This document shows, piece by piece, positions 35,111 to 58,202 of a DNA stretch of 60,173 nt. Within the stretch, counting starts at the first letter, position 1. Every line of letters begins with the position of its first letter. The notes under the pieces are model-generated. The model ran no database searches. It worked only from the letters and a program-made list of their open reading frames with translations, and was not told where the DNA came from. The DNA comes from an uncultured bacterium (GTDB lineage: Bacteria > Desulfobacterota > GWC2-55-46): the NCBI GenBank assembly GCA_905339405.1, contig CAJPGC010000002.1, forward strand, positions 1-60,173, read 5' to 3'. The position numbers and the translations under genes are program-made.

Positions 35111-35218
35111 GCTATTTTTTCTGAGGTCGAGGAAGGGTGGAAATAAAAAGCGCAGCATATAATGTGAATATGTGAGCATTTTTATTTACACCCTGACAAA
35201 GAGATCAGGAAAAAGAGC
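35111..35218. repeat. Palindromic element E2 between hemB and ahbD
   Basis: Outer arms GCTATTTTTTCTGA (35111-35124) and TCAGGAAAAAGAGC. Inner arms GGGTGGAAATAAAAAGC (35135-35151) and GCATTTTTATTTACACCC (35176-35193) with an AT-rich loop. It is about 108 bp and closely matches E3 at 54511-54618 in the thiamine operon. Confidence 0.8.
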
Positions 35219-51842: not shown

Positions 51843-52030
51843 AATCTGCCGTTACAGTTACTAATGCGGACTTTTCAGGTATAATCTCGCTGGAGGTCTG
51901 GCAAGGGCCGGAGAAGCCTATAAACGGGGTCGCGGAAATGACGTAAACCCCTTTAACTTCAAATATATATGTTGACTCGAACATGGTTGTATATTATCCT
52001 ATCCAAAATAGTCACGAGGGCTATCAGGTG

Positions 52031-52624
52031 ATGAAGGCATCGACGCCGGCGCAGGAAAAAAAGGTCCTAATAGCGGAAGACAACCCAAAGACAAGGCTCT
52101 TCCTCAAAAACCAGCTTGAGCTCCTTGGATACCAGGTAGAGGCCGTCTCAAACGGGCAGGCCGCGGTAGACATGGTCTCCGAAGTAGACCCGACGCTCGT
52201 AATAATGGACGTCAAGATGCCGGAGATGGACGGCATAGACGCCGCCAGGAACATCTCCGCCAGGAAGACGATACCCATAATCCTCATCACCGGCCTCTCC
52301 TCCGACGAGATGGCCACGAAAGCCATAGAATCCGGCGTTTTCGCCTATCTGGTGAAACCCGTCACCAAAAAGCAGCTCGAGCCCGCCATTAAGCTCGCGA
52401 TGGCAAGGTACGACGAGTTCAAGAGCCTCAAGGTCGAGGTCGACGACCTCAAGGACGCCATCGAGACGAGAAAGCTCGTCGAGCGCGCCAAGGGCATCCT
52501 CATGAAAAGGTGCAACATCACCGAGGAAGACGCCTTCAAGCTCCTGCAGACCCATTCACAGAAAGAGAACAAGAAGATGCGCGAGATAGCGGAAACGATA
52601 GTGGCCGCGAGCAAGCTCATCTGA
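52031..52624 (+). CDS. ANTAR-domain response regulator
   Basis: 197 residues from ATG at 52031 (frame open to 51983). Receiver: VLIAEDNPKTRLFLKN with acidic pocket, phospho-acceptor Asp in LVIMDVKMPEMDGID, Thr in ILITGL, and Lys in LVKPVTKK. A linker helix (residues ~120-145) leads to the ANTAR domain (RAKGILMKRCNITEEDAFKLL). ANTAR proteins bind two-hairpin RNA leaders and promote antitermination. Its kinase is not adjacent. It lies 126 bases upstream of the TPP riboswitch of the thiamine operon, which is a separate regulatory unit. Target RNA unknown. Confidence 0.93.
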   Translation: MKASTPAQEKKVLIAEDNPKTRLFLKNQLELLGYQVEAVSNGQAAVDMVSEVDPTLVIMDVKMPEMDGIDAARNISARKTIPIILITGLSSDEMATKAIESGVFAYLVKPVTKKQLEPAIKLAMARYDEFKSLKVEVDDLKDAIETRKLVERAKGILMKRCNITEEDAFKLLQTHSQKENKKMREIAETIVAASKLI

Positions 52625-52750
52625 CCCCTCTTTTCGCCAAAACCCTTTTAAAAACTTGACTTGAACGGGCCGGACTGCTATTTTTATCTGGTAAGGGCGT
52701 TGTTGCGTTCACGCCTTTTGGTTTTCGAGCCCGACTCAGGGCAACATATA

Positions 52751-52842
52751 CACGCTGGGGGAGCCCGCAAGGGCTGAGAGTTCCCGAAAGGGAAGACCCT
52801 GACGACCTGATCTGGTTAATACCAGCGTAGGGAAGCGGCAGA
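52751..52842 (+). ncRNA. TPP riboswitch (THI element)
   Basis: Conserved bases: GGGGGAGCCC, GGGCTGAGAG, GACCCTGACGACCTGATCTGG, and TTAATACCAGCGTAGGGAAGC (each shown within the 20-base limit as key blocks). P1 pairs CGCTGG (52753-52758) with CCAGCG (52822-52827). It senses thiamine pyrophosphate and lies upstream of the thiH-like gene. A terminator at 52873-52898 completes a transcription attenuation switch. Confidence 0.95.
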
Positions 52843-52872
52843 TTACGGGAGCAGTCCCGTTAGAGGACATTT

Positions 52873-52898
52873 AAAGCCGCCTTTCCAGGCGGCTTTTT
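52873..52898 (+). terminator. Attenuator terminator of the TPP riboswitch
   Basis: AAAGCCGCC / GGCGGCTTT with loop TTTCCA and T run (52894-52898). Between it and the aptamer is ACGGGA / TCCCGT, a possible antiterminator or spacer hairpin. This layout fits TPP-induced termination before the first gene. Confidence 0.88.
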
Positions 52899-52914: not shown

Positions 52915-54264
52915 ATGATAATAGACGAAGTAAAAGTCGGACTCCTCTCGAAGGCCCCGGAGCCGGGAGCGGGCGAGCTGGCCGCCATCCTCGAAGAGGC
53001 CTCAAAAGGCAAGGGTCTTCCTCTCGAGGCGGCGGCATCCCTCCTTGCCGTCAGTGACGAAGCCATGCTCACCGGGCTCTTTGCCGCAGCCGGGAAACTC
53101 AAAGAACGCGTCTTCGGCAAGAGGATAGTCCTTTTCGCCCCGCTTTACCTGTCAAACCACTGCACGAACGGCTGTACTTACTGCGGCTTCAGGGCCCAGA
53201 ACAGGGACGTTTCAAGAAGGGCCCTTACCATAGAAGAGACCATCGCGGAAGCGAAGGCCCTCGAACAGATGGGCTTTAAAAGGGTGCTCCTCGTCACCGG
53301 CGAAGACCCCAGGTGGGGGCTCGATTACATCGTCGGGGCAGTAAAGGCCATATACAACAAGACCGGTATGAGGATAGTCCACGTGAACGCCCCCCCGATG
53401 GACGTTGACGCCTTGAGGGAACTGAAGGCGGCAGGCGCCGGAGTCTATCAGGCCTTTCAGGAGACATACCACAGGCCCACCTACGGGCTTATGCACCCCT
53501 CCGGCAGGAAAAAAGATTTCGACTACAGGCTCTCTGTCATGGACAGGGCCATGGAAGCCGGGTTCGGGGACGTCGGCATAGGCGCGCTCCTGGGCCTTTT
53601 CGACTACCGTTTCGACGCGCTCGCGTCAATCGCGCACTCCATCCACCTTTTCGAGACCTTCGGCAGCCACGCCCATACCATATCAATCCCGAGGCTGAGG
53701 CCAGCGGAGGCAGGGCTCAAGGAAGCCCCCTGGAAGATTACCGACGGGGAGCTCAAGAAGGTCGTCACAGTCTACCGCCTCTCGGTGCCGTCGGCTGGTA
53801 TAGTCGCCTCGACGAGGGAGTCTGCTTCCTTCAGAAGCGAGCTCATAAAAATCGGGGCCACGCAGCTCAGCGCCGCCTCAAAGACGAACCCGGGCGGCTA
53901 CAAGGGCGGACAGAGCCTCGAGCAGTTCTCGACCAACGACCACAGGTCGCTTCAAGAGGTAATGGCCTCGGTCGTGGACGACGGGCTTCTGCCGAGCCTG
54001 TGCACGACCTGCTACAGGGTCGGAAGGACGGGACAGGACTTCACGGACAAGGCCACAACCGGACAAATGGAGAAGTTCTGCCAGGCGAACGCCGTGCTGA
54101 CCCTCAAGGAATATCTCCTCGACTACTGCGTGAACGGCTCGAAAGAATCTGTCGCGAAGGCGATAGACGAAGGCTTGAGAGAAGTCAAAGACGAAGGGCT
54201 CAAAAAGGCCCTCATCGAAAAATTGAAAGAACTGGAAGCCGGCAAAAGGGACCTCTTTTTTTAG
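52915..54264 (+). CDS. HydG/ThiH-like tyrosine lyase (radical SAM), in thiamine operon
   Basis: 449 residues; AGGAAAAAG before ATG at 52915. The radical SAM cluster is CTNGCTYC (Cys83, 87, 90) and the core fits the ThiH/HydG family that cleaves tyrosine to p-cresol and dehydroglycine. ThiH feeds dehydroglycine to ThiG. Unusually the C-terminus has CTTC (Cys363, 366) and FCQ (Cys389), a CX2CX22C set identical in spacing to the auxiliary-cluster motif of HydG, the hydrogenase H-cluster maturase, and normally absent from ThiH. The other HydG-like segments are LLVTGEDPRWGLDYIV, QAFQETYHRPTYG and SLEQFSTNDHRS. Directly followed by thiS (one base) and preceded by a TPP riboswitch, so its role here is probably thiazole synthesis. 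Confidence 0.88.
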   Translation: MIIDEVKVGLLSKAPEPGAGELAAILEEASKGKGLPLEAAASLLAVSDEAMLTGLFAAAGKLKERVFGKRIVLFAPLYLSNHCTNGCTYCGFRAQNRDVSRRALTIEETIAEAKALEQMGFKRVLLVTGEDPRWGLDYIVGAVKAIYNKTGMRIVHVNAPPMDVDALRELKAAGAGVYQAFQETYHRPTYGLMHPSGRKKDFDYRLSVMDRAMEAGFGDVGIGALLGLFDYRFDALASIAHSIHLFETFGSHAHTISIPRLRPAEAGLKEAPWKITDGELKKVVTVYRLSVPSAGIVASTRESASFRSELIKIGATQLSAASKTNPGGYKGGQSLEQFSTNDHRSLQEVMASVVDDGLLPSLCTTCYRVGRTGQDFTDKATTGQMEKFCQANAVLTLKEYLLDYCVNGSKESVAKAIDEGLREVKDEGLKKALIEKLKELEAGKRDLFF

Positions 54265-54265
54265 C

Positions 54266-54466
54266 ATGAAGATAAAAGTAAACGGGGATATGAAAGAGCT
54301 TCCGGATGGCGCGACGATTGATGCGCTCCTTGAGCTCCTTTCAATCAAGGCCCAGGGCATAGCGGTCGAGGTCAACAGGGAGATAGTGCCCAAAAGGCTT
54401 TTTAGCGGGACGGCCCTGAAAGAAGGCGACGCTGTCGAGATAGTGCGGATGGTCGGCGGCGGGTAG
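54266..54466 (+). CDS. thiS: Sulfur carrier protein ThiS
   Basis: 66 residues with the ubiquitin-like pattern (MKIKVNGDM, ATIDALLELLSI, GDAVEIVRMVGGG) and the C-terminal Gly-Gly that is adenylated then thiocarboxylated by ThiF-type enzymes. It delivers sulfur to ThiG. The ATG starts two bases after the thiH-like stop. No thiF is in the window. Confidence 0.95.
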   Translation: MKIKVNGDMKELPDGATIDALLELLSIKAQGIAVEVNREIVPKRLFSGTALKEGDAVEIVRMVGGG

Positions 54467-54510
54467 AATCCAACCATGATGTTGAAAATTGTTGAAGCTG
54501 TTCAAAATTA

Positions 54511-54618
54511 GATATTTTTTCTGAGATCAAGGAAGGGTGGAAATAAAAAGCGGAGCATATATGAATAATATGTGAGCATTTTTATTTCCGCCCTGACACA
54601 GAGGTCAGAAAAAATAGC
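54511..54618. repeat. Palindromic element E3 between thiS and thiG
   Basis: ATTTTTTCTGAGATC... with inner GGGTGGAAATAAAAAGC / GCATTTTTATTTCCGCCC and closing GTCAGAAAAAATAGC. Its layout and most of its sequence match E2 at 35111-35218, with differences mainly in the loop. Paired changes GGGTGG/ACACCC versus GGGTGG/CCGCCC are seen in the arms. Confidence 0.8.
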
Positions 54619-54657
54619 AATTTTTTAGGCAGCATTAAAATCATACCGGAGAACAAG

Positions 54658-55425
54658 ATGGACACGGTAAAGATAGGCAAATACATATTCAAGTCCCGCC
54701 TCATGGTCGGGACGGGCAAGTACCCGTCAAACGAGATAATGGTTAAGGCCCTCGAGGCCTCAGGGGCCGACCTGGTGACAGTGGCCGTCCGCAGGGTCAA
54801 CCTCGACAGGTCAAAGGAATCACTCCTCGACCATATCGACAAGACCAAATACAGGCTCCTGCCGAACACGGCCGCCTGCTACACCGCCGAAGAAGCCATT
54901 AGGACGGCCCGCCTCGCGAGGGAAGCCCTCGAGACAGACCTCATAAAGCTCGAGGTCATAGGCGACGAGAAGACCCTCTTCCCAGATAACGAAGCGCTGC
55001 TCGAGGCCGCCAGGGTGCTCGTGAAAGAAGGCTTCACGGTAATGCCGTATACAAACGACGACCCCATCATGGCCAAGAAGCTCGAAGATATAGGCTGCGC
55101 CGCGGTGATGCCTCTTGCCGCGCCCATAGGCTCGGGGCTTGGCATCAGGAACCCGTACAACATTAGGATAATCCTCGAGACTGTGAAGGTCCCGATAATA
55201 GTCGACGCCGGTGTGGGCACGGCCTCTGACGCGGCGATAGCCATGGAGCTCGGCTGCGACGGCCTCCTCATGAACACCGCGATAGCTGGCGCGAAAGACC
55301 CTGTAGCCATGGCAAAGGCCATGAACCTGGCGACCCAGGCCGGAAGGCTCGCCTTCACCTCCGGAAGGATACAGAAGAAGCTCTACGCAACAGCTTCGAG
55401 CCCGCTTTCGGGGCTGATAGAATAA
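54658..55425 (+). CDS. thiG: Thiazole synthase
   Basis: 255 residues. It forms the thiazole ring from deoxyxylulose-5-phosphate, ThiS thiocarboxylate and dehydroglycine. Visible: [51 protein letters not shown] with the Schiff-base Lys region, and [21 protein letters not shown] (key residues). Full length. The gap from thiS holds palindrome E3. After it comes E4 and lgt. Confidence 0.96.
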
Positions 55426-55440
55426 AAGACACTCCAATCA

Positions 55441-55482
55441 GTTATTTTTTTCCGAGGTCGAGGAAGCGACAGGAAAAATAAC
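55441..55482. repeat. Short palindromic element E4 between thiG and lgt
   Basis: GTTATTTTTTTCC (55441-55453) pairs with GGAAAAATAAC (55472-55482). The middle GAGGTCGAGGAAGCGAC shares GAGGTCGAGGAAG with E2. It is a shortened relative of E2/E3. Confidence 0.65.
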
Positions 55483-55510: not shown

Positions 55511-56287
55511 ATGCACCCGATACTTTTTGAATACGGGCCCATCCAGATAAGATTCTACGGGCTCATGTACGTCATCGCGATACTCGTGGGCAACTACCTC
55601 ATAAAAAAAGAGGTGGACAGGAAAGGCATACCCCTGAGCGGCGACGACGTCATGAACTTCGTCATCTGGACTGTCGTCGGCGGCATCATCGGCGCGAGGC
55701 TCTATTACGTCGCCTTCAACTGGGGCTTCTATTCCGCCAACCCTTCCGAGATACCGGCGGTCTGGCACGGAGGGCTCGCCATCCACGGCGGCATGATAGG
55801 CGGCATCATTGCAGCATTCATGTATTTGAAGCGCAAAGATATAAGATTCTGGAGGATGGCCGATTCGGTCGCCCCCGCGCTCATTCTCGGGCAGGCCTTC
55901 GGCAGGTTCGGCAACTTCATGAACGGGGACGCCCACGGCAGGCCAACCGACGCGCCCTGGGGCATCGTCTTTCCGCCGGAGTCGATCGCCGGGGCTGAAA
56001 ACCCGGGAGTGCCGCTCCACCCGACGATGCTCTACGAGATGTCGATAAACCTCTCCATCTTCCTGTTCCTCTGGCTGTATTTGAGGAAAAGGGCGCACAG
56101 GGACGGGTTCGTATTCGCCGCGTATATAGCCTTGTACTCACTCGGGAGGTTCGTGGTCGAGCACTTCAGGGCGGACAGCCTCATGTTGGGGCCCATAAAA
56201 GCGGCGCAATTCGTAAGCCTCGTGATAGCGGCTGTTGCAATCGCCATTATAATCTCAAGGAGGCTCTGGGAGCCTCAACGGAAATAG
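55511..56287 (+). CDS. lgt: Prolipoprotein diacylglyceryl transferase
   Basis: 258 residues, multi-pass membrane enzyme that transfers diacylglycerol to the lipobox cysteine of prolipoproteins. Key parts: YGLMYVIAILVGNYL, GGIIGARLYYV, HGGLAIHGGMIGGI with the catalytic His/Arg region, ALILGQAFGRFGNFMNGDAHGR (shown as key residues) and HPTMLYE, with FVVEHFR. It lies within the thiamine gene run, probably a chance operon member, and its stop is five bases before thiE. Confidence 0.96.
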   Translation: MHPILFEYGPIQIRFYGLMYVIAILVGNYLIKKEVDRKGIPLSGDDVMNFVIWTVVGGIIGARLYYVAFNWGFYSANPSEIPAVWHGGLAIHGGMIGGIIAAFMYLKRKDIRFWRMADSVAPALILGQAFGRFGNFMNGDAHGRPTDAPWGIVFPPESIAGAENPGVPLHPTMLYEMSINLSIFLFLWLYLRKRAHRDGFVFAAYIALYSLGRFVVEHFRADSLMLGPIKAAQFVSLVIAAVAIAIIISRRLWEPQRK

Positions 56288-56292
56288 GATTG

Positions 56293-56937
56293 ATGGGCCT
56301 GCCGAGCCTTTATCTCATAACCGACAGGAAGGCAACAGGCCCAAGGGGGCTCATTCCCACGCTGGAAGCGGCCTTCAAGGGCGAGGCCTCCCTCGTGCAG
56401 CTCCGTGAGAAAGACCTCAGCGCAAGAGAGATGCTTTCGCTGGCAAAAGATGTCAGAAAGCTCGCTCACAAGTACGGAGCAAGGCTCCTCATAAACGACA
56501 GGACGGATATAGCGCTTCTGGCAGGGGCCGACGGCGTGCACCTGACCTCGAAGAGCTACCCGGCCAAAGAGGCGAGAAGGCTCCTGGGCGGCAAGGGGCT
56601 CATAGGAGTTTCGACCCACAGCATCGAAGAGGCTTTAAAAGCTCAGGAAGACGGGGCCGACTTCGTAACCTTCGGGCCGGTATTCCATACCGCGTCAAAG
56701 GCGGGCATGGGCAACCCGCTCGGCATTGAAAAGTTGAAAGAGACGGTACAAAGACTTTCCATACCTGTATTTGGCCTGGGCGGAATAGACGAAACCAACG
56801 TGGAAGAAACGGCCGCTTCAGGAGCCTCTGTTGCCCTGATATCGGCCATTATGACGAGCAACGACCCGGAACGCGCAACGATTGACCTTCTGGCGGCCGC
56901 GGGTAAGTTCGGAGCAAATCACAAGGAGAGGACATGA
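56293..56937 (+). CDS. thiE: Thiamine-phosphate synthase
   Basis: 214 residues from ATG at 56293 (a TTG one codon earlier is alternative). It couples HMP-pyrophosphate and thiazole phosphate to thiamine phosphate. Motifs: LYLITDRKATGP, LVQLREKDLSAREM, RLLINDRTDIALLAGADGVHL (key residues), GVSTHSIEEA, FVTFGPVFHTASK, and VFGLGGIDETNV. Its stop overlaps the thiC start as ATGA. Confidence 0.95.
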   Translation: MGLPSLYLITDRKATGPRGLIPTLEAAFKGEASLVQLREKDLSAREMLSLAKDVRKLAHKYGARLLINDRTDIALLAGADGVHLTSKSYPAKEARRLLGGKGLIGVSTHSIEEALKAQEDGADFVTFGPVFHTASKAGMGNPLGIEKLKETVQRLSIPVFGLGGIDETNVEETAASGASVALISAIMTSNDPERATIDLLAAAGKFGANHKERT

Positions 56938-58202
56938 CACAGCTTGAGGCGGCCCGCAAGGGCATCATAACGGCGGAGATGAAAACTGCCGCGGCAAAAG
57001 AAGGGGTCGAGGCGGAATTCATAAGAAAAGGCATTGAGGAAGGCGTCATCGTCATCAACCGGAACCGCCTCCATACCTCCATCGAGGGCCTTGCCGTCGG
57101 GCGGGGCCTTAAGACCAAGGTCAACGCGAACATCGGCTCCTCGCAGGACATGGTCGACGTCGAAGTCGAGCTTCGTAAGCTGAGGGCCGCTATAGCGGCC
57201 GGGGCGGACGCTGTGATGGACCTCTCAACCGGCGGGGACGTGGCCTCCATAAGAAAAGCGGTCATGGCCGAATCGACGGTCGCCATCGGCACCGTGCCCA
57301 TCTACCAGGCGGCCCACGACGCGCGGAAGAGCGGCAAGTCCTTCGTCGAGCTTTCGGGCGAGGAGATGTTCGAAGCCATAGAGCGGCACGCAGAAGACGG
57401 GGTGGACTTCGTCACCGTTCACTGCGGAGTGACGAGGAGCTCTGTCGAGCGCACGAGGAAAGAAGGGCGCATCATGGGCATAGTGAGCAGGGGCGGGGCG
57501 CTCACGGCCGAGTGGATGAAGTTCAACAAGAAGGAGAACCCGCTTTACGAGGACTACGACAGGCTCGTCAAGATTGCAAAGAAGTACGACATGGTCTTGA
57601 GCCTCGGCGACGGGCTCCGCCCGGGCTGCCTCGCCGACGCGACCGACAGGGGGCAGGTCTCCGAGCTCATCACATTGGGCGAGCTCGCGAAAAAGGCCTT
57701 TGACGAAGGGGTGCAGGTCATGATAGAAGGGCCTGGACACGTTCCAATCGACCAGATAGAGGCGAACATACTCCTGCAGAAACGGCTCTGCAACGGCGCA
57801 CCCTTTTACGTGCTCGGCCCGCTTGTGACTGACATAGCCCCGGGCTACGACCACATAACCTCGGCCATAGGAGGGGCCATAGCCGCCTCCGCCGGAGCGG
57901 ACTTCCTCTGCTACGTCACGCCGAGCGAGCACTTGAGGCTGCCGACGATTGAGGACGTGAAAGAGGGCGTCATAGCCGCGAGGATCGCGGCCCACGCCGG
58001 GGACATCGCCAAGAGAGCCAAAGGCGCGATAGAGGCTGACAAAAAGCTCGCCCGTGCGAGGAAAGCCCTCGACTGGGACGAGCAGATAAGGCTTTCAATA
58101 GACCCCGAGAAAGCGCGGGCCATAAGGAGCACGAGCCCGCCCGAGGACGAATCGGTATGCACGATGTGCGGAAGCCTGTGCGCGATAAAGATCCAGAAAT
58201 GA
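56934..58202 (+). CDS. thiC: Phosphomethylpyrimidine synthase ThiC (short form)
   Basis: 422 residues. It rearranges AIR to HMP-phosphate with SAM-derived radicals. Recognised by TKVNANIGSSQD, SIDGTVPIYQAA-type core (VAIGTVPIYQAAHDA), SRGGALTAEWM, SLGDGLRPGCLADA, EGPGHVPIDQIEAN, and ITSAIGGAIAAS. The C-terminal cluster reads CTMCGSLC, a CX2CX3C form shorter by one residue than the CX2CX4C of E. coli ThiC; it is seen in the short ThiC type of anaerobes and archaea. Start at 56934 overlaps thiE. The operon runs on to the GNAT gene. Confidence 0.95.
   Translation: MTQLEAARKGIITAEMKTAAAKEGVEAEFIRKGIEEGVIVINRNRLHTSIEGLAVGRGLKTKVNANIGSSQDMVDVEVELRKLRAAIAAGADAVMDLSTGGDVASIRKAVMAESTVAIGTVPIYQAAHDARKSGKSFVELSGEEMFEAIERHAEDGVDFVTVHCGVTRSSVERTRKEGRIMGIVSRGGALTAEWMKFNKKENPLYEDYDRLVKIAKKYDMVLSLGDGLRPGCLADATDRGQVSELITLGELAKKAFDEGVQVMIEGPGHVPIDQIEANILLQKRLCNGAPFYVLGPLVTDIAPGYDHITSAIGGAIAASAGADFLCYVTPSEHLRLPTIEDVKEGVIAARIAAHAGDIAKRAKGAIEADKKLARARKALDWDEQIRLSIDPEKARAIRSTSPPEDESVCTMCGSLCAIKIQK

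Follow-up and report, generated by a model that had tools for sequence, protein, structure and literature searches.

The tyrosine lyase encoded in a thiamine operon of an uncultured Desulfobacterota bacterium most likely belongs to a HydG-family branch dedicated to thiamine synthesis, which current models annotate as hydrogenase maturase. The gene lies on the + strand at 52915-54264 of the window, the whole stretch of 60,173 nucleotides analysed here (ATG at 52915, stop codon at 54262-54264), and its 449-residue product is proposed to be a 2-iminoacetate (dehydroglycine, DHG) synthase. Judged from its sequence and those of its relatives, it is very probably a HydG-type enzyme specialised for the thiazole pathway, in a subfamily accompanied by a ThiG clade of its own. 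The enzyme is not peculiar to its own genome; it occurs across the class and in other phyla, among many unrelated anaerobes. Full-text searches of open-access literature turned up no prior account of a HydG in a thiamine operon. The NCBI HydG equivalog passes the thiamine enzymes, and HydG matches are thus misread as [FeFe]-hydrogenase maturation or hydrogen metabolism in lineages devoid of it.

A HydG-type lyase between a TPP riboswitch and thiS

A full-length TPP riboswitch aptamer (52747-52850, + strand; RF00059, 70.8 bits against a gathering threshold of 54.3) would control expression of the lyase. Its likely expression platform is an intrinsic terminator-like hairpin of 10 bp with a T-rich tail (52873-52896, +), which immediately precedes the lyase ATG. 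A sigma-70-like promoter candidate, TTGACT-17-TATTTT with an extended TG, was picked out by consensus match alone at 52656-52684 (+). A single base separates the lyase stop codon from thiS (54266-54466, +; TIGR01683, 73.7 bits), whose product is a sulfur carrier with a C-terminal Gly-Gly. The remaining genes on the same strand are thiG, encoding thiazole synthase (54658-55425; PF05690, 382.7 bits), lgt, encoding prolipoprotein diacylglyceryl transferase (55511-56287; TIGR00544, 224 bits), thiE (56290-56937; TIGR00693, 186 bits) and thiC (56934-58202; TIGR00190, 631 bits). This order, with lgt lodged between thiG and thiE, is kept across the class.

Two features of the surroundings deserve mention in their own right. 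A response regulator carrying an ANTAR RNA-binding domain is encoded at 51983-52624, immediately upstream of the riboswitch; its proximity to the thi operon persists across the family, and an anti-termination link between the two is conceivable. A short AT-rich repeat, TATTTTTTCYGAGRTCRAGGAAG, has three + strand copies at 35112-35135, 54512-54535 and 55443-55466, where none is expected. The copy between thiS and thiG lies within a nested inverted repeat at 54504-54625, which might be a small mobile element of the intergenic space or a REP-like one.

Family models place the lyase with HydG. It scores 400.4 bits against TIGR03955, the equivalog for the H-cluster maturase (cut-off 312.15), and fails TIGR02351, the model for the 2-iminoacetate synthase ThiH, at 315.8 bits against a cut-off of 380. 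The AlphaFold prediction has a mean pLDDT of 95.2; it can be superposed on 446 residues of TiHydG (4wcx) at 1.3 A (Z 57.3), with the C-terminal domain covered, and on 360 residues of ThiH (7pd1). The radical-SAM motif CX3CX2C (Cys83-Cys87-Cys90; 53161-53184, +) is invariant in the alignment. The HydG-type auxiliary-cluster motif that the earlier note had read from the translation, Cys363-X2-Cys366-X22-Cys389, is exactly in place at 54001-54081 (+), with the three cysteine codons at 54001-54003, 54010-54012 and 54079-54081; the residues share alignment columns with Cys394, Cys397 and Cys420 of TiHydG chain 4wcx. Chance is far from explaining this match, given a phmmer E-value of 4.7e-121 between the lyase and 4wcx and the superposition of the model. 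The C-terminal domain, which the same note had wished to see modelled around the dangler-iron site, carries the comparison further: His254 of an HTIS motif (53674-53676, +) falls in the column of the proposed fifth-iron (dangler) ligand of TiHydG.

The enzyme thus combines traits of two families. With HydG (TiHydG 4wcx and ChHydG 4rtb) it has in common the full-length fold, the radical-SAM and tyrosine-binding residues, the auxiliary CX2CX22C and the HTIS histidine; it differs in its thiamine operon and TPP riboswitch, in lacking HydA, HydE and HydF partners, in its barrel lining, which reads IHVV rather than RNTI, and in Thr377 of the C-terminal domain, where HydG has Met. With TcThiH (7pd1) it shares its place beside thiS and thiG, the tyrosine-binding residues and the inferred reaction, but it possesses a C-terminal cluster domain that ThiH lacks, has a HydG-like Asn158 instead of Glu158, scores below the TIGR02351 cut-off and sits in a distinct clade. 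NosL, a tryptophan lyase, shares the radical-SAM fold of amino-acid lyases (Z about 42) at only 24% identity. Arg307 of the window enzyme aligns with Arg306 of TcThiH, a residue absent from NosL (PMC9046217), which marks the enzyme as a tyrosine lyase.

All five tyrosine-binding residues described in TcThiH, T299, R300, R306, S318 and S321 (PMC9046217), are conserved in the window enzyme. For that reason the reaction should begin with cleavage of L-tyrosine into p-cresol and DHG; ThiG would then condense DHG with deoxyxylulose phosphate and the sulfur borne by ThiS. Genome content is in keeping with such a role. The window genome (2.65 Mb, about 95% complete) encodes a full-length ThiF/MoeB-type protein, and the lyase gene is its sole TIGR03955 match. 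The second thiH that the earlier note thought worth seeking was not detected in this genome. ThiO exceeds its cut-off in none of 63 class genomes and has no match at all in the window genome. With neither ThiO nor a second ThiH, the window enzyme is, on gene content, the sole candidate source of DHG. At about 95% completeness, single absences in this one genome are weak, whereas class-wide absences are strong.

Spread, signature and descent of the thi-type enzymes

The arrangement of riboswitch, HydG, thiS and thiG recurs throughout the window's class. The same operon occurs in named genomes, including Moorella mulderi, Nitrospirae, a Deferribacteres MAG and more deltaproteobacterial MAGs, in a set of up to 80 loci that was chosen by conserved peptide patterns and gives no frequency. 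A TPP riboswitch lies upstream of the thi-type gene or operon at 10 of 12 loci tested. The Moorella class is particularly informative. Eight of its 22 genomes carry a thi-type copy together with a separate HydG-type copy, and the latter adjoins hydE in seven of these genomes; the exception, G130, has two short loci that were typed by signature. Canonical ThiH in the thiG operon accompanies HydG in four further genomes and occurs by itself in one, and none of the 22 contains both a thi-type enzyme and canonical ThiH. This mutual exclusivity indicates that the thi-type copy occupies the ThiH slot.

Nine alignment columns divide thi-type from hydrogenase-type sequences, where control clades yield zero to two comparable fixed columns. 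Four of the nine, at window residues Ile154, His156, Val177 and Val297, read IHVV in 29 of 30 thi-type rows (the exception, L057, reads AHVV) and RNTI in all 50 other HydG-type sequences, TiHydG and ChHydG included; canonical ThiH has neither. This signature was derived in the present analysis, not taken from the literature, and in the sample studied it separates thi-type enzymes cleanly from HydG. One locus, L063, was assigned to the thi type on its signature while its context was still unseen, and was then found to lie directly behind a ThiF-like gene. The Carboxydothermus HydG structure 4rtb, considered as a possible thiamine-type protein, was ruled out by its RNTI signature. Glu133 of TiHydG (TcThiH position 128) was rejected as a HydG marker, being present in only 18 of 49 HydG-type rows.

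Phylogeny agrees with a distinct subfamily of thi copies. Without an outgroup, the enzyme tree splits thi-type from hydrogenase-type sequences at 100/99, and the ThiG partners of thi-type enzymes fall into a single clade apart from those linked to canonical ThiH, also at 100/99. The separate thiamine lineage raised in the earlier note, neofunctionalised or ancestral, is thus borne out by the HydG/ThiH trees, the IHVV signature and the ThiG clade, although the trees do not give the direction of evolution. When rooted on canonical ThiH, they recover thi-type and hydrogenase-type enzymes as sisters, with weak support and a long outgroup branch. The sister relationship would suit a history in which the thi-type preserves the original DHG synthase that gave rise to hydrogenase HydG. 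The weak support, the long branch and the lack of either signature in canonical ThiH make this somewhat unlikely. It concerns history, and is compatible with a HydG-type enzyme specialised for thiazole synthesis.

Repeated recruitment is less probable. The thi enzymes of the Moorella type and of the window's class might each have been drawn from HydG independently and have reached their four shared residues by convergence, and the branch joining them does fall to an SH-aLRT of 52 once the nine diagnostic columns are removed. A single origin of the enzyme accordingly depends for the most part on those columns and on ThiG, but the ThiGs of both groups belong to the one clade at 100/99, which argues against convergence.

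Barrel lining and the second metal site

HydG converts DHG to CO and cyanide, whereas thiamine synthesis needs DHG to arrive at ThiG intact. The residues that distinguish the two types might bear directly on this difference. In the predicted model, residues 154-158, 175-179 and 295-298 are barrel strands. The first, IVHVN (53374-53388, +), holds Ile154 and His156, which are R and N in HydG, and Asn158, which corresponds to Glu158 of TcThiH, a residue that faces the tyrosine carboxylate (PMC9046217). Ile154 and His156 should therefore face the cavity, lying four and two residues along the strand from Asn158. Val177 (53443-53445, +; Thr in HydG) precedes Phe181 by four residues, and the TiHydG counterpart of Phe181, Phe192, lines a proposed DHG channel (PMC9046217); the remaining switch residue is Val297 (53803-53805, +; Ile in HydG). 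In HydG, some 2.4 nm separate the auxiliary cluster, at the bottom of the cavity, from the first cluster (PMC6212873). From strand alternation, by which their orientation was assigned, we infer that the four switch residues face the cavity, along the shaft leading from the tyrosine site to the auxiliary cluster, and that thi-type enzymes have re-lined this shaft. The missing polar R/N/T side chains could plausibly explain how DHG escapes breakdown to CO and cyanide. The earlier concern that the cluster would harm thiazole synthesis is not justified; it presumes an output of CO and cyanide, which is doubtful given that every barrel position fixed in HydG differs here.

The second metal site itself is strictly kept. 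All three auxiliary cysteines are present in every thi-type sequence covering them, and the HTIS histidine is invariant in thi-type enzymes and HydG and absent from canonical ThiH. We take this histidine to correspond to His265 of TiHydG, the proposed fifth-iron ligand, at a numbering offset of 14 that three independent residues support. The HydG literature names 'a histidine' in that role (PMC6212873). Thi-type proteins are 41-54% identical to each other, yet neither the cysteine set nor the histidine changes. Such invariance argues that the second site is under selection and not a relic. The earlier note had allowed that the cysteine set might prove common and neutral among thiamine enzymes without hydrogenase; common it is, but the constancy of the cysteines and histidine speaks against neutrality. 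The same observation makes it improbable that a HydG was drafted into thiamine synthesis and kept its auxiliary site as structural ballast. Canonical ThiH does run the reaction without a C-terminal cluster domain (PMC9046217), but a relic would be expected to lose some of these residues at such divergence.

The auxiliary [4Fe-4S] site is accordingly expected, from residue conservation, to be metal-loaded and to serve the thiamine reaction. Structural, DHG-holding and gating roles would all fit. A purely structural cluster is possible, with the HTIS histidine hard to explain on that footing. The version favoured here, with moderate confidence, is that the site retains or gates DHG until it passes to ThiG. 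More tentatively, the site and its fifth-iron histidine might contribute actively to the chemistry of thiazole formation, for instance by chelating and protecting DHG until ThiG accepts it, in which case thiamine biosynthesis in these organisms would contain an unrecognised second metallocluster step. In TcThiH, the barrel end is thought to be the site of DHG hand-over to ThiG (PMC9046217). An exit route must be assumed for the thi-type enzyme, because its cluster-bearing C-terminal domain would cap that end.

Thi-type enzymes and HydG form a natural comparison set, in which one scaffold with the same second cluster apparently breaks DHG to CO and cyanide in one case and delivers it intact in the other. 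Control of DHG fate becomes testable through the four residues, and the Moorella class, with both enzymes in one cell, offers a convenient system.

Hydrogenase partners and a second HydG

The window genome lacks detectable HydA, HydE, HydF and canonical ThiH. None of the 63 class genomes has an [FeFe]-hydrogenase domain (HydA) or an over-cut-off HydF, and HydE-like proteins appear in only seven of them, all other than the window genome, as HypC-HydE fusions. The window genome does carry a large subunit of the [NiFe]-hydrogenase family, along with HypE and HypF, the normal cyanide route for that enzyme. The dual use raised in the earlier note, taken here as DHG going to ThiG and CO and cyanide to an [FeFe] hydrogenase or to this [NiFe] hydrogenase, is very improbable: the enzyme retains all auxiliary-cluster ligands, and a related HydG beside the fusions in sister genomes looks devoted to [NiFe] hydrogenase, but the HydA/E/F partners are missing, HypE and HypF are at hand, the thi-type copy is still kept where a genome has another HydG, and its barrel signature is unlike that of every HydG sampled.

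The seven fusion genomes raise a separate subject. Each has a second HydG, of RNTI type where aligned, beside a HypC/HydE-like radical-SAM fusion; these loci are L041 (G004), L042 (G007), L043 (G020), L044 (G047), L045 (G049), L046:10228-16343 (G052) and L047 (G016), and L133 and L082 also belong to this observation. The HypC part has an N-terminal MC[LY] motif, and PF01455 was present in both fusions scanned. Several of the loci adjoin genes for [NiFe]-hydrogenase subunits and a maturation protease. All seven genomes encode a [NiFe] hydrogenase, and none has HydA, HydF, HypF or an over-cut-off HypE, while HypF is found in 45 of the 56 other class genomes (Fisher p = 5.8e-5, relatedness ignored). 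Judged by gene content, these genomes seem to assemble the Fe(CO)(CN)2 unit of [NiFe] hydrogenase by a radical-SAM route that needs neither HypE nor HypF. Full-text literature searches yielded no description of such a route, which may outweigh the thi-type enzyme in importance.

Two further hydrogenase observations were made. In G089, of the same phylum, the HydG at L050:8444-9943 reads CTAGYRC where others read CTACYR, its second auxiliary cysteine being missing or displaced; this genome also has HydE, HydF and HydA. In eight genomes (G031, G033, G034, G030, G004, G056, G057 and G059), full-length large subunits of [NiFe] hydrogenase cross one or two in-frame TGA codons, suggesting selenoprotein (NiFeSe) hydrogenases.
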